Assembly (NCBI RefSeq): GCF_001457795.1
Contig: NZ_LN898210.1
Span: forward strand, 310,001 to 374,000
Reading direction: 5' to 3'
DNA length: 64,000 nt
From: Olsenella massiliensis
GTDB lineage: Bacteria > Actinomycetota > Coriobacteriia > Coriobacteriales > Atopobiaceae
Shown: one piece after another, positions 8,373 to 52,917 of the stretch
How positions within the stretch are numbered: position 1 is the first letter of the stretch
Layout of the letters: each line of letters begins with the position of its first letter
The notes under the pieces: model-generated
Told to the model about the DNA's origin: nothing
The model's input: only the letters and a program-made list of their open reading frames with translations
The model's database searches: none
Program-made: the position numbers and the translations under genes

Positions 8373-9671
8373 CTAGGCCTGGGTGACGACGCCGCCCGTC
8401 AGGGTGCGCCTGCCGCCGACGAAGACGTCCGTCGCGGCGCCGACGAGCGACTGCCCCAGAAACGCCGAGTTCTTAGACTTGCTCTCAAAATAGTCGACCG
8501 TGACGTCCACCTCTTGCTCGGGGTCGATGAGCGTGAGGTCGGCCACGGATCCCGCCTCGACGCGCACGGGCGCGAGCCTCAGGACGCGACGGGGGTTGAC
8601 GGCCATGACCTCCACGAGGCGCGCCCAGCTCAGACGTCCGGTACGCACCAGCTTGGTGAGCATGAGGGGAAGGGCCGTCTCAAGCCCTATGGTGCCAAAG
8701 AAGGCGATCTCCCACTCGCAGTCCTTCTCGTGCTGGGCATGGGGGGCATGGTCGGTCACAAGGCAGTCGATGGAGCCGTCGATGAGGCCTTCCACCAGGC
8801 GCTCCATGTCATGGGCCGAGCGCAGGGGCGGATTCATCTTGAGGTTGGTGTCATAGGCGTCCGTGATGTCGTCCTCGTTGAGGAAGAGGTGGTGCGGCGT
8901 GACCTCGCAGGTGACGGGCAGCCCCTCCTCCTTCGCCTGCCTGACGAGCTCGAGGCCCTTTGCGGTCGAGATGTGCGCTATGTGCAGGGCGCATCCGGTG
9001 AGGCGGCAGAGCTCGATGTCACGGTAGATCTCGAGCTCCTCGCCCAGGGCGGGCCAGCCGAACATCCCCAGGCGGGTGGACGATCTGCCTTCGTTGATGA
9101 CGCCGTTGGCGGTGAGGGCCTCGACCTCGCAGTGCGCGATGGCGACGCGGTCAAACTGCGAGACGTAGTCCATGCACGTGCGCATCATGCCCGCGCTCTG
9201 GACGCCGTGTCCGTCGTCCGAGAAGGCGCTCGCGCCCTCCATCACCATGTCGCCGATCTCGGCCAGCGCCTCGCCCTTCTCACCGCGCGTGAGCGCGCCG
9301 ATGGGGCGCACGTGACAGAGGCCCGCCTGACGGGCGTGGTCGAGCTGGTAGCGAATCTCGGCACCGGAGTCCGTGACGGGATCGGTGTTGGGCATCGTGG
9401 CCACGTCCGTGAAGCCGCCGTGGGTTGCCGCGCGCGCACCGGTCTCGATGGTCTCCTTGTACTCGAAGCCGGGGTCGCGAAAGTGCACGTGCATGTCCAC
9501 GAGACCGGGAACCAGGTACTTGCCCGTGCCGTCGATGACCTCGACGCCGTCGGCGCCGTCGATGGCGGGCGCGACGCGGGCTATGGTCGAGCCCTCAATG
9601 AGGACGTCACGCACGTCGTCAAGGCCCAGCTGCGGGTCGACCACATGGGCGCCCCTAATCAGAAACGGCAT
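8373..9671 (-). CDS. pyrC: Dihydroorotase
   Basis: Cyclises carbamoyl-aspartate to dihydroorotate; zinc enzyme of the amidohydrolase fold. 432 residues with DMHVHFRDPGFEYKE (about residues 57-71, metal ligands), the HxA and HIAHIST histidine region, and VTDHAPH near residue 308. This is the class I multidomain-like form typical of Gram-positives. A GGGAGGAG ribosome site precedes the ATG, and the 5' end overlaps pyrB by 17 bp. Confidence 0.95.
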   Translation of the reverse strand: MPFLIRGAHVVDPQLGLDDVRDVLIEGSTIARVAPAIDGADGVEVIDGTGKYLVPGLVDMHVHFRDPGFEYKETIETGARAATHGGFTDVATMPNTDPVTDSGAEIRYQLDHARQAGLCHVRPIGALTRGEKGEALAEIGDMVMEGASAFSDDGHGVQSAGMMRTCMDYVSQFDRVAIAHCEVEALTANGVINEGRSSTRLGMFGWPALGEELEIYRDIELCRLTGCALHIAHISTAKGLELVRQAKEEGLPVTCEVTPHHLFLNEDDITDAYDTNLKMNPPLRSAHDMERLVEGLIDGSIDCLVTDHAPHAQHEKDCEWEIAFFGTIGLETALPLMLTKLVRTGRLSWARLVEVMAVNPRRVLRLAPVRVEAGSVADLTLIDPEQEVDVTVDYFESKSKNSAFLGQSLVGAATDVFVGGRRTLTGGVVTQA

Positions 9672-46229: not shown

Positions 46230-48137
46230 ATGTCGCAGCATCCTCAGCACGACGACCCCGACCAGCTACGGTACCTACGGCTGCTCTCCCAGAGCTTCCC
46301 CACGCGCCAGGCCGCCTTCACCGAGATCATCAACCTCGAGGCCATCCTCAACCTTCCCAAGGGCACCGAGCACTTCCTGAGCGACGTGCACGGCGAGTAC
46401 GAGGCCTTCGAGCACATCCTCAACAACTGCTCGGGCGTCATTCGCGAGCGCGTTGACGCCCTGTTCGCCGGCGAACTCGACGCCGCCGAGCGCGCCGACC
46501 TGTGCACCCTCATCTACTATCCCAGGCAGAAGCTGCGCCAGCTCCACGCACGACAGACGCTTGACGGCAACTGGTACGAGGCCCAGCTGCTGATGCTCGT
46601 GCGCCTGGCGCGCACGCTCTCGGGCCTCTATACCCGCTCCAAGGTGCGCCGCGCCATGCCCGTGGACTATGCCTACATCATCGACGAGCTCCTGCACGCC
46701 TCCGCGGCCGGCGAGACGAGCCGCCATGAGTACCACGTGCAGATCATTCGCTCCATCGTGGGGACGGGCGCCGCAGACCACTTCATTCGCTCGCTCGCCG
46801 CCCTCATCAAGCGCCTGGCCGTTGACCATCTCCACCTGATCGGAGACGTCTTTGACCGCGGGGCGCATGCCGACAAGATCATGGACCGCCTCATGGAGTA
46901 CCACTCCCTTGACATCCAGTGGGGCAACCATGACATCTGCTGGATGGGAGCGGCCGCGGGATCGCAGGCCTGCATCGCGGCGGTGGTCCGGACCAACGTG
47001 CGCTACCGCAGCTTCGACATGCTTGAGAGGGCCTATGGCATCTCCCTGCGCAATCTCGCCCTCTTTGCCGAGCGCACCTATCGGCCGGACGGGGGCATCT
47101 CCCCCATGGAGAAGGCCATCTCGGTCATCCTCTTCAAGGTCGAGGGCCAGCTCATCCTGCGCCATCCCGACTTTGACATGACGTCGCGGCTGCTTTTGGG
47201 ACAGATGGACCTCGCGGGCGGCACGGTGCACGTGGGCGGTCGCGACCTGCCGCTCTCCTCGACCGACTTCCCCACCGTGGACCCCGAGCGTCCCTATGAG
47301 CTCTCGGCCGAGGAGGGCGACGTCCTCGCCGAGCTTGAGCAGGCCTTCTCGCAGAGCGAGCGGCTTCGTCGTCACGTGGGCTTCCTCTACGAGCGAGGCT
47401 CCGTCTATCAGGTGTCCAACGGCAACCTCCTCTTCCACGGCTGCATCCCGCTGGAGGCCGACGGCACCTTCTCCACCGTCATCTGCGAGGGCTACCCCTA
47501 TTCGGGCAGGGGCTTCATGGACTTCTGCGACCGCATCGCGCGGCGCGCGTGGAACGTGGGCGACCAGATGGCGCTCGACTGGATGTGGTACCTCTGGTGC
47601 GGCAAGCACTCCCCGCTCTCGGGACGCGTCGTCAAGACCTTCGAGCGGAGCTTCGTGAAGGACCGCTCGTCCTGGGCCGAGCCGCAAGACCCCTACTTCA
47701 CGGCCACCCGCCTGGGGGCCGTCTGCGAGGAGATCCTGGAGGAGTTCGGGCTGGACGACGAGCACTCCCACATCATCAACGGCCACAAGCCCGTCAAGGC
47801 GATCGACGGTGAGAGCCCCATCAAGGGCGAGGGACGGCTGCTCGTGATCGACGGGGGCTTCTGCGAGGCCTATCACAAGACCACCGGCATCGCGGGCTAC
47901 ACGCTCATCTCCGCCGACGACGGCATGCGCATCAAGGCGCACCTGCCCTTCATGGGGGTCGACGCGGCGCTGGGCGACAACGCCGACATCCTGAGCGAGT
48001 CAACGACCATCGAGAGGGAGGTACCGCACCTGAAGATCAAGGACACCGACACCGGCGACGACATCAGGACCCAGATCGCGGACCTCAGGGCGCTCCTTGA
48101 CGCCTACCGCTGCGGCACGCTCAAGGAGCGCAGCTAG
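46230..48137 (+). CDS. fbp: Class III fructose-1,6-bisphosphatase
   Basis: Gluconeogenic phosphatase of the metallophosphatase fold, common in Firmicutes. 635 residues with metal-binding motifs SDVHGEYEAFEHIL (about residues 51-64), IGDVFDRG (about 204-211), WGNHDICWMG (about 230-239) and INGHKPVK, all in family order. AAGGAGG precedes the ATG. About 60 bp of this gene (47038-47100) reappear at 51420-51482 behind a sequencing adapter; that copy is an artefact. Confidence 0.95.
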   Translation: MSQHPQHDDPDQLRYLRLLSQSFPTRQAAFTEIINLEAILNLPKGTEHFLSDVHGEYEAFEHILNNCSGVIRERVDALFAGELDAAERADLCTLIYYPRQKLRQLHARQTLDGNWYEAQLLMLVRLARTLSGLYTRSKVRRAMPVDYAYIIDELLHASAAGETSRHEYHVQIIRSIVGTGAADHFIRSLAALIKRLAVDHLHLIGDVFDRGAHADKIMDRLMEYHSLDIQWGNHDICWMGAAAGSQACIAAVVRTNVRYRSFDMLERAYGISLRNLALFAERTYRPDGGISPMEKAISVILFKVEGQLILRHPDFDMTSRLLLGQMDLAGGTVHVGGRDLPLSSTDFPTVDPERPYELSAEEGDVLAELEQAFSQSERLRRHVGFLYERGSVYQVSNGNLLFHGCIPLEADGTFSTVICEGYPYSGRGFMDFCDRIARRAWNVGDQMALDWMWYLWCGKHSPLSGRVVKTFERSFVKDRSSWAEPQDPYFTATRLGAVCEEILEEFGLDDEHSHIINGHKPVKAIDGESPIKGEGRLLVIDGGFCEAYHKTTGIAGYTLISADDGMRIKAHLPFMGVDAALGDNADILSESTTIEREVPHLKIKDTDTGDDIRTQIADLRALLDAYRCGTLKERS

Positions 48138-48360
48138 GCGCCGTTGGCCCCGCAGGCTGCGACCGGGCACCGTTTGTCCCGCAGGCTGCCGCAGGTCTCG
48201 GCCGGACGGCGCCGACGACGGGCGGCCGGCGCGGGTTGTCCCCAATCTGCGCAGTTTGAGGACGCCGGCGTGCGGGTCCGGCCCAATGGGTATGAGTGAC
48301 CCACGCGCCATCGCCACGCGACGGGCGCAGGGAGCAGACGACAAAGGAGCCAACACCGCA

Positions 48361-50250
48361 ATGGAGATGGACGACAACAAGAAGCGCAAGTCAATGGCGC
48401 TCTATATCGTGATTGCCCTCATCGTGATGCTGACCGTGAGAACCTACCTCTATCCCAGCATCATGGCAACGCAGATCAAGGATGTCAGCTACAGCGAGTT
48501 CCTCGCCAAGGTCGACGCCCGGGAGGTGAAGAAGGTCACCTACGACACGAGCGCCAACCAGATCCGCTTCACCACCGGCGCCGGCGCCGACTCCCAGGAG
48601 TTTCGCACCACCGCCTGGCCCAACGACGACAGCCTCGCCCAGAAGGTGGAGGCGTCCGGTGCCGAGATGGTCGCCGAGATACCTGACGCAAGCGCGGGCC
48701 TGTGGCTCTACCTCCTCATCAACCTGCTGCCCTTCGCCCTCATCCTCGGCGGCGGGTGGCTCCTCAACCGCCGTCTGCGCAAGTCCATGGGCGACGCCCC
48801 CTCCATGAACTTCGGCGGAGGGCTGGGCTTCGGCGGCGGGCTGGGACGCTCCGGCGCCAAGGAGGTCAAGGGAGAGGAGACGGGCATAACCTTCAGGGAC
48901 GTCGCCGGGCAGGACGAGGCGAAGGAGTCCCTCGAGGAGATCGTCTCCTTTCTGGAGCATCCCGAGAAGTACAACGCCATCGGCGCGCGCTGCCCGCGCG
49001 GCGCCCTGCTCGTCGGCCCTCCCGGCACGGGAAAGACGCTGCTGGCCAAGGCGGTCGCCGGCGAGGCGAAGGTCCCCTTCTTCTCCATCTCGGGCTCCGA
49101 GTTCGTCGAAATGTTCGTGGGACGCGGCGCCGCCAAGGTGCGCGACCTCTTCAAGCAGGCCAAGGAGAAGGCGCCCTGCATCATCTTCATCGACGAGATC
49201 GACACGGTGGGCAAGCGCCGTGACACGGGCCTCAACACCAACGATGAGCGAGAGCAGACGCTCAACCAGCTCCTGGCCGAGATGGACGGCTTTGACAACC
49301 ACAAGGGCATCGTCGTGCTGGCCGCCACGAACCGTCCCGACTCGCTTGACGCGGCGCTCCTGCGCGCCGGGCGCTTTGACCGTCGCATCCCCGTGGAGCT
49401 GCCGGACCTCGCCGGGCGCGAGGCCATCCTCAAGCTGCACGCCAACGACGTGAAGATGGAGGGCGGCGTGGACTTTGGCGCCGTCGCCCGCCAGACCCCC
49501 GGCGCCTCCGGCGCCGACCTTGCAAACATGATCAACGAGGCGGCGCTCAGGGCCGTGCGCCTGGGCCGCACCCGCGTCACCCAGCGTGACATAGAGGAGT
49601 CCGTTGACGTCGTCATAGCCGGCGAGAAGAAGAAGTCCACGGTGCTCTCGGAGCACGAGAAGGAGATCGTCGCCTACCACGAGACGGGCCACGCCATCGT
49701 CGCCGCCGTCCAGGACGGCAGACAGCCCGTGTCCAAGATCACCATCGTGCCGCGCACCTCGGGCGCCCTCGGCTTCACGATGCAGACCGAGGAGAGCGAG
49801 CGCTACCTCACGACGCGCGAGGAGTACAAGCAGCAGATCGCCGTGCTCTGCGGCGGTCGTGCCGCCGAGGAGCTCATCTTTGGCCAGGTCACCTCCGGGG
49901 CGGCCAATGACATAGAGAAGGCGACCAAGATCGCGCGGGCCATGGTCACGCAGCTGGGCATGTCGGACACCTACGGCATGATGGCCCTCGGCGAGAGCCG
50001 CAACCGCTACCTGGGCGGCGGCATGGAGCTCACCTGCTCGGAGGGCACGGCGCGCGACGTCGACGAGGAGGTCAGGGCGCTCGTCGAGGAGGGGCGTCAG
50101 ACGGCGCTCAAGACCCTTCGGGACAATCGCTTCAAGCTGCACGAGATCGCTCACTACCTCCAGAAGAAGGAGACGATCACGGGCGAGGAGTTCATGCGCA
50201 TCCTCAGACGTGACGACGGGTTCGCACCCACCCTGCCCACCCGATCCTAG
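48361..50250 (+). CDS. ftsH: Membrane AAA protease FtsH
   Basis: ATP-dependent zinc protease that degrades membrane and regulatory proteins. About 629 residues: a membrane segment (about residues 13-32), an extracytoplasmic domain, a second membrane segment (about 116-135), a Gly-rich linker, the AAA domain with GPPGTGKT (about 219-226), IIFIDEID and the second region of homology [18 protein letters not shown], and the peptidase motif HETGH near residue 440. AAAGGAG lies upstream of the ATG at 48361. Confidence 0.96.
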
Positions 50251-50275
50251 CGTCAGGACCCATGTCCCACCGCGT

Positions 50276-50318
50276 GCCGTGTCGGCCGGGGACCCCCACG
50301 GACCTCGGCCGACACGGC
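50276..50318. terminator. Bidirectional hairpin between ftsH and the SpoU methyltransferase
   Basis: Perfect 13-bp inverted repeat GCCGTGTCGGCCG / CGGCCGACACGGC with a 17-base loop, placed between two converging genes. No strong U-tract on either side. Confidence 0.65.
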
Positions 50319-50327
50319 GCTGAGGCC

Positions 50328-51176
50328 CTAGGGACGCGACGCCGGGGCGTGAGGGCGCCCGAAGAGCTCCCAGCAGGCGACGGCGACTGAGGCGGCCACG
50401 TTGAGCGAGTCCACGCCGACGGCCATGGGGATGACGGCGTGGACGTCGCACGCCGAGAGGGTGCGCGACGACAGTCCCGCCCCCTCGCTCCCGAAGACGA
50501 GGGCCATCGGTCCGCGTGCCTGGGGCAGCCTTGACAGCTCGCCGAGCGGGTGCGCCTCGGGCGTGAGCGCCAGGGCGACGCGCCAGACGCCGAGCCCGGC
50601 CATCTGCGCGAACGCGCCCTGCGGCCAGGGCCCCTCCGCCCTCGCCCACGGCAGCTGGAAGACCGTGCCCATGGACACCCGCACCGCGCGGCGGTTGAGG
50701 GGGTCGGCGCAGCCAGGGGCGAGCAGGACCCCGTCGGCCCCGAGCGCCGCCGCCGACCTGAAGGCGGCCCCGACGTTGCTGACGTCCGTCAGCCCCTCAA
50801 GCACGACGAGGCGAGACGCCGCGCGCAGCAGCCGCTCCTGGGGAAGGGGGCGGGGGCGTCGAGCTTCGGCGAGATAGCCGCGCGTGACGGAGAACCCGCA
50901 TATGCCGCTCAGGACCGCACGGCTCGCGCAGAAGACCTCCACGTCGGAACCGTCGAGCTCGGGGATGTCCGCGAGCAGCTTTTCCACGTGACGCTCGTCC
51001 ACCAGCACCGAGCGGACCTGCACGCCCTCCCTGAGGGCCGTCCTGATGACGAGCAGGCTCTCGAGGATGACGACACCCTCGTCGGGCTCGAGGCGACGTT
51101 GCAGCTGGCGGGAGGTAAGCCGGGCGTACGAGCGCACGCGGGGGTCCGAGATGTTCTCGATGCGTGATGTTGTCAT
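50328..51176 (-). CDS. SpoU/TrmH-family RNA 2'-O-methyltransferase
   Basis: Methylates ribose 2'-OH in tRNA or rRNA; substrate not assignable. 282 residues: an N-terminal RNA-binding domain and a C-terminal SPOUT knot with motif 1 NVGAAFRSAAALGADG (about residues 134-149), motif 2 LVFGSEGAGLS and motif 3 IPMAVGVDSLNVAASVAVA. Divergent from the L,D-transpeptidase gene, sharing a short promoter region. Confidence 0.9.
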   Translation of the reverse strand: MTTSRIENISDPRVRSYARLTSRQLQRRLEPDEGVVILESLLVIRTALREGVQVRSVLVDERHVEKLLADIPELDGSDVEVFCASRAVLSGICGFSVTRGYLAEARRPRPLPQERLLRAASRLVVLEGLTDVSNVGAAFRSAAALGADGVLLAPGCADPLNRRAVRVSMGTVFQLPWARAEGPWPQGAFAQMAGLGVWRVALALTPEAHPLGELSRLPQARGPMALVFGSEGAGLSSRTLSACDVHAVIPMAVGVDSLNVAASVAVACWELFGRPHAPASRP

Positions 51177-51285
51177 CAGATGACACCCATTCCTTACGCC
51201 GACGGGGCATGGGTACTATAGTAACCACCTACGTACGCTGGATGGACGATGCGCCCTCGGGGCGCGACGGATAAGGAAGTGTCGA

Positions 51286-52917
51286 GTGAGCGACAGCACG
51301 AGCGACGAGGGCGGCAGGGACGTGCGCGACGAGGCGAATGACACGCCCCGGGGCAAGCACGCGGCGCCGCGGGGCGAAGGGCCGTCTCTTTTACACATCT
51401 AGATGTGTATAAGAGACAGGCATCCCCCTGCGCCATCTCGCCCTCTTTGCCGAGCCCACCTATCGGCCGGACGGGGGCCTCTGGACGGCTCCGGCACGTC
51501 CGGCCGCGTCAGGCTCGCGCTCAGGGCCGCGGCGGCCCTGCTCGGCGTCGTCGCCGTCATCTACCTCGTCGGCGTCGCAGTCTTCTCGCGGCGCTACGTC
51601 CCAGGCACCACCGTCAACGGCGACGACGTCTCGCTCAAGACCCCCGCGGAAGTGGCCGAGGACTACGAGAGGGCGGCGGGCGGCTATGAGCTGTCCGTCT
51701 CGGGCCAGGGCGTCTCCTGCTCGATCTCGGCGGAGGACGTCGGTCTGAGCTACCGGTACGCCGACACCCTGGCCGAGTCGTCCCTTAGCTCCACGGCCTG
51801 GAGCTGGCCGGTGCTTGTGACAACGGGCAACGCCCTTAGCGTTGACTTCTCGCCCGGCTACGACGAGGGCAGGCTCGCCTCGGTCGTCCAGGGCGTCGTC
51901 GATGACGCCAACCGGGACGCCACCCAGCCCACGAACGCCACCGTCAGCTATGACGAGGACGGCTCCTCCTTTGAGATCGTGCCCGAGAGGACGGGCACCG
52001 CGCTTGACGGCGCCATCGTCCTCGACAAGGTGAAAGAGGCGCTCTCGACATCGGCACGCACGCTCGAGCTGGGTCCCGACAGCCTCATGGCGCCCTCGGT
52101 CCTCTCCACGGACCCAGCGCTGGCCGGCGCCCGCGACCGGGCCAACGCGATGCTCGCCGCCACGCAGACCCTCACCGTCAACGGCACGACCGTCGCCACG
52201 GTCTCGGCCGCCCAGATCGCCGACTGGGTGCGGCTCGACGACGACCTGACCCCCGTCGTCGATGAGGGGGCCGTCACGGACTGGGCCCGGGGCGACTTCT
52301 CCGCCGCGACGGACACCGTCGGCGCGACGCGCCGCTACACCACGCCCTATGGAAAGTCCGTGACCGTCGCGGGCGGCACCTATGGCTGGGTCGTCAACGG
52401 CGCTGCACTGGCCCAGGCCATCGCGGCCAACATCACGGCCGGCAGCGCCGCCACCGTGGAGATTCCCTTCTCGTCCTCGGCGGGCAGGTACAACCCCGGG
52501 GGCGCCGACTGGCCCAGGCGCTACGTCGACGTGGACCTGTCCGAGCAGCACGCGCGCATGTATGACGACGACGGCAACCTTGCCTGGGAGTCAGACATCG
52601 TCACCGGCGACTCGACCAAGGGCTTCAACACCGCGACCGGCGTCTACGCCATGAACTCGTACCGCGGGACCAACCAGACCCTGCGCGGCCTCGACCTCGA
52701 CGGGGACAACAAGCCTGACTACATCAGTCATGTGACCTACTGGATGCCCTTCGTCGGCAACCTGGTCGCCTTTCATGACGCGGGATGGCGCGGCTCGTTT
52801 GGGGGGACCATCTACCGGTCACGGGGCAGCCATGGCTGCATCAACCTGCCTTTTGCGGCCGCCCAGCGGCTCTATGAGCTCACGCGCGTCGGTGACGTCG
52901 TGGTCGTCCACGACTGA
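51286..52917 (+). CDS. L,D-transpeptidase (YkuD) with PG-binding region, interrupted by an adapter artefact
   Basis: Cross-links peptidoglycan stem peptides outside the membrane. The true start is the GTG at 51286 behind AAGGAAG; its first 32 codons give an acidic/polar cytoplasmic tail. After the artefact the frame continues with a membrane helix (LALRAAAALLGVVAVIYLVG), a putative peptidoglycan-binding region (TVSYDEDGSSFEIVPERTGT) and a C-terminal YkuD domain with HDAGWR and the catalytic SHGCINL. An in-frame TAG at 51400-51402 lies inside inserted adapter sequence. The frames on both sides agree, so the real gene is almost certainly intact; the bases between 51381 and about 51480 are wrong. 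Confidence 0.88.
51382..51419. other. Nextera mate-pair junction adapter (sequencing artefact)
   Basis: 38 bases made of two back-to-back Tn5 mosaic ends. 51401-51419 matches AGATGTGTATAAGAGACAG exactly; 51382-51400 matches its reverse complement with two mismatches. Not genomic DNA. Confidence 0.97.
51420..51482 (+). other. Misplaced copy of an fbp fragment
   Basis: Aligns without gaps to 47038-47100 in fbp with 59 of 63 bases identical. It directly follows the adapter, as expected if both ends of one circularised library fragment were read through. Confidence 0.93.

Follow-up and report, generated by a model that had tools for sequence, protein, structure and literature searches.

A Nextera mate-pair junction adapter and a displaced fbp fragment within an assembled contig of Olsenella massiliensis

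The hyperactive Tn5 transposase recognises a 19-mer called the mosaic end. As described for the program NextClip (Leggett et al. 2013; PMC3928519), Nextera mate-pair libraries carry 19-bp tags that become joined by circularisation, the adapter may sit at any point of a read and must be trimmed, and inserts reach 12 kb. The same layout of junction-adapter reads, with the same need for trimming, is described for Skewer (PMC4074385), and unclipped junction reads are known to mislead assembly (PMC3928519, PMC4074385). The junction 38-mer that we used in our searches, CTGTCTCTTATACACATCTAGATGTGTATAAGAGACAG, has also been printed as a circularisation ('ring') adapter (PMC7357533). In one bacterial pipeline (PMC5552949), Nextera mate-pair libraries of 1.5-11 kb were prepared with no size selection and sequenced as 2 x 251-base MiSeq reads. 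Trimmed and untrimmed data were both assembled in that study, and gaps were then closed with GapCloser.

The window analysed here is a stretch of 64,000 nucleotides from contig 12 of the Olsenella massiliensis assembly, which comprises 1.82 Mb in 13 contigs with a completeness of 97%. It contains 101 bases, positions 51382-51482, that are a leftover of the sequencing kit and not DNA of the organism, and thus are not a biological feature. The relevant elements are as follows.

51382..51419, no strand assigned: Nextera mate-pair junction adapter made of two 19-bp mosaic ends placed back to back, with 36/38 identity
51420..51482, + strand: displaced fbp copy, putatively where the circularised fragment began; its right edge can be placed only to within about 4 bases
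47038..47100, + strand: the true source of the 63-bp copy in the genome, within intact fbp
46230..48137, + strand: fbp, Firmicute-type fructose-1,6-bisphosphatase, 635 aa, intact (Pfam FBPase_2, E 2e-257)
47038..51381, + strand: inferred genomic fragment, tagmented and circularised, as suggested by the positions of adapter and copy and by the same geometry at seven other junctions

The adapter reads CCGTCTCTTTTACACATCT-AGATGTGTATAAGAGACAG, which is two joined mosaic ends. Its second half (51401-51419) is perfect at 19/19, and both mismatches of the 38-mer lie in the first half, CCGTCTCTTTTACACATCT (51382-51400). The fbp copy begins at the first base past the adapter and aligns to its source without gaps on the same strand at 59/63, with an offset of -4382 bp. 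The two form the sole strong direct repeat (at least 40 bases) in the window, and the 63-mer has one second copy in the whole genome and no third. The alignment closes with four bases, one mismatch and then TCT, and therefore the right edge of the copy could fall anywhere in 51478-51482. Chance is excluded as a source of either match, since the expectation in the window for the 38-mer at up to 3 mismatches is zero and the next best ungapped placement of the 63-mer, on both strands of the window, reaches only 34/63. The earlier note had proposed a circularisation adapter followed by 63 bp of fbp, and had derived a fragment of 4344 bp from 47038 to 51381. Realignment returned the same figures for both matches, and the length is correct.

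That note also called for a genome-wide search with AGATGTGTATAAGAGACAG. At up to 2 mismatches, the 19-base mosaic end has 29 matches in the assembly versus none for the reversed control. When these half-adapter matches were combined with a looser scan of the regions around adapters, about 16 sites with near-complete 38-mers emerged in 1.82 Mb, including the window site.

Contig 10: C10:97615 and C10:127456
Contig 11: C11:184952
Contig 12: C12:154672, 175744, 193144 (exact match), 195601, 226603, 305933 and 361382 (the window site)
Contig 13: C13:223715, 277065, 277187, 388180, 403962 and 594835

The genome scan also found that contig C9 starts within an adapter (C9:1-27), and it picked up a few degraded adapter halves. 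At up to 2 mismatches, the 38-mer is absent from the 139 other genomes of the family that were searched. The copies at the 16 sites carry 58 mismatches in 608 positions, as expected of low-quality read ends, and the errors differ from copy to copy. Most junction flanks have a G+C content of 70-84%, a little higher than the 65-70% around them.

Two further sites were observed during the scan. At C13:277065-277224, two junction adapters stand 84 bases apart and the intervening piece has no match nearby; perhaps a gap was bridged there by two junction reads. At C13:764716-765003, a 262-bp copy (1 mismatch) of 762128-762389 is followed by an N, the only one among the regions examined, and then by a degraded mosaic end. 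The direction of this copy is opposite to that which circularisation would give, and the site is probably a different misassembly.

If a junction arises by circularisation, its right flank should copy upstream sequence or its left flank should copy downstream sequence, always on the same strand. A clear copy flush with the adapter is present at 8 of the 16 junctions, and all eight fit this strand and direction.

C12:154672, left flank from downstream, +3595, 62/62
C12:175744, right flank from upstream, -3944, 106/106
C12:305933, left flank from downstream, +9640, 68/68
C12:361382 (window site), right flank from upstream, fbp copy as above
C13:223715, right flank from upstream, -2885, 47/54
C13:388180, left flank from downstream, +4165, 49/52
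C13:403962, left flank from downstream, +2407, 42/42
C13:594835, right flank from upstream, -4508, 52/52

Best scores on the opposite strand are at chance level for these eight flanks. The implied fragments are about 3.6, 3.9, 9.6, 4.3, 2.8, 4.1, 2.4 and 4.5 kb, and this range of 2.4-9.6 kb falls inside that of Nextera mate-pair libraries (up to about 12 kb; PMC3928519). Thus, the order of fragment end, adapter and fragment start that had been predicted for the window site agrees with every junction that has a detectable flank copy. Speaking against this reading, no clear displaced copy was found within 10 kb of the other eight junctions, two of which (C10:127456 and C13:277065) show weak 20-base candidates whose direction fits. 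Flanks that are short, noisy or trimmed, chimeric circles, or missing genome might explain these cases.

The 59/63 match to fbp is real, and one might ask whether the 63-bp repeat is a natural partial duplication of the gene that adjoins the adapter by coincidence. However, the copy is flush with the adapter's last base and has no functional relation to its host gene, and the seven other junctions show equally flush copies of unrelated sequence. On these grounds we rejected a natural fbp duplication, for which the remaining probability is negligible.

The outer adapters of mate-pair libraries are of the TruSeq type. One junction, at C12:193144, has kept the outer end of a library molecule, which is now part of the contig (C12:193089-193181). 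At this site, 22 bases separate the perfect 38-mer from a preceding CGCTCTTCCGATCT, which is the 3' end of the Illumina TruSeq adapter. The match to the TruSeq 3' end is 28/33 overall, 25/27 over the last 27 bases and 14/14 over the last 14, and within 1 mismatch the genome has no second instance of this 14-mer, CGCTCTTCCGATCT. For the 21 bases beside the 38-mer, the matches in the rest of the assembly are weak, with 3 mismatches; the explanations offered above for junctions that lack a copy might apply here too. The order of TruSeq end, 22 bases and 38-mer is what a short library molecule would give if sequenced from the TruSeq adapter into the junction. No TruSeq end was seen beside the window's own adapter site.

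This junction also bears on whether the window contains ordinary Nextera paired-end read-through, in which an adapter is read at the end of a short insert. Paired-end libraries do use the same 19-bp mosaic end, but read-through gives one mosaic end and then an index adapter, rather than two joined ends followed by genomic sequence from kilobases away. Moreover, the outer adapter that is present is TruSeq and not a Nextera index adapter. Read-through is therefore vanishingly unlikely.

A mosaic end could also be left in the organism itself, either as the scar of a real Tn5-type insertion or excision or as the remains of a laboratory transposon. The identity of the 19-mer is what such a scar would predict. 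However, the two mosaic ends are directly adjacent, with no cargo or transposase between them, and none of the 16 sites has a 9-bp target duplication: 1/9 flank bases are identical at the window site and at most 6/9 elsewhere. A scar would also leave unexplained the displaced copies that lie 2.4-9.6 kb away with a fixed direction, the errors that differ among adapter copies, and the TruSeq adapter end. We consequently rejected a real transposon scar, lacking as it does both target duplication and cargo, and regard it as extremely improbable. There is next to no likelihood that the chromosome of the strain truly contains pairs of synthetic mosaic ends, such as laboratory transposon work might leave, and that these mark real rearrangements.

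The adapter, the displaced copy, the geometry and the genome-wide recurrence support the proposal of the earlier note that an untrimmed junction read was built into the contig. We are almost certain that the insert is an untrimmed Nextera mate-pair junction read, which probably served the assembler or a gap closer as a bridge across a G+C-rich spot that was probably poorly covered. In this mechanism, the transposase would have placed a 19-bp tag on each end of the fragment 47038-51381, and circularisation would have fused these tags to form the 38-mer. A read over the junction would then run from the fragment end through the adapter into the fragment start, and the assembly would have retained it as genome sequence. 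More generally, single noisy reads and gap filling appear to have bridged poorly covered spots. A pipeline such as that of PMC5552949, which is not necessarily the one applied to this genome, offers a plausible route by which junction reads might enter contigs.

The artefact interrupts a gene near its start and creates a false reading frame.

51286..52917, + strand: L,D-transpeptidase gene with YkuD and PG_binding_4 domains, broken near its start by the artefact
51403..52917, + strand: false ORF of 504 aa, with its ATG in the adapter

The GTG at 51286, which has AAGGA upstream, is likely the start of the L,D-transpeptidase gene. The frame from this codon meets a TAG at 51400-51402, inside the adapter, which is the false stop named in the earlier note. 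The false peptide beginning MCIRDR, also named there, was found as the ORF that starts at 51403, and an adapter GTG at 51405 opens a further short ORF beginning MYKRQ. On both sides of the 101 bp, the gene is read in one and the same frame. Because 101 is not a multiple of three, this cannot be a clean 101-bp insertion in a complete gene, unless the right edge shifts by a base or two. Either true bases are missing at the join or its edge is not sharp. Relatives of the protein occur in Olsenella and other Coriobacteriia, with the nearest named ones at no more than 55% identity, and the length of the N-terminal linker is too variable among them to serve as a guide. In a comparison with 4 other genomes of the genus, the DNA upstream of the insert matched none, so that no relative supplied the true sequence at the site.

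These observations are relevant to data quality only and serve as a warning. Each of the roughly 16 adapter sites inside contigs can break a gene on paper, and each can yield false proteins (MCIRDR..., MYKRQ...) and put a spurious second copy of part of a gene kilobases from the original. Those who use this genome as the representative of its species should mask the sites.

The exact 38-mer is also present in five plasmid records (NZ_KY978628.1, NZ_CP032357.1, NZ_MT039157.1, NZ_MF589339.1 and NZ_MF918372.1), where it is likely the same contamination; in NZ_KY978628.1 it occurs at 9001-9038 and 9530-9567. Unlike this genome, the Cronobacter plasmid record examined has no displaced copy beside its adapters. 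Among IMG/VR viral contigs, the exact 38-mer lies in seven stretches of six contigs, within 10 bases of the stretch end in four of them. One viral stretch (L058) contains a second, inverted copy, 97 bases long, of the sequence to the left of its adapter. No copy of the 38-mer turned up in a search of E. coli complete genomes. Its sparse occurrence in plasmid and viral records fits a widespread, low-level contaminant.

The junctions described here resemble those known from Nextera mate-pair data (PMC3928519, PMC4074385) in their two joined 19-bp tags, in the read order of fragment end, adapter and fragment start, and in inserts that lie in the library range. Mismatches, of which most adapter copies carry one or more, may have helped the reads to escape trimming. 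Unlike the cases treated with NextClip and Skewer, the junction reads here are located inside finished contigs, and this has happened about 16 times in one 1.8-Mb genome.
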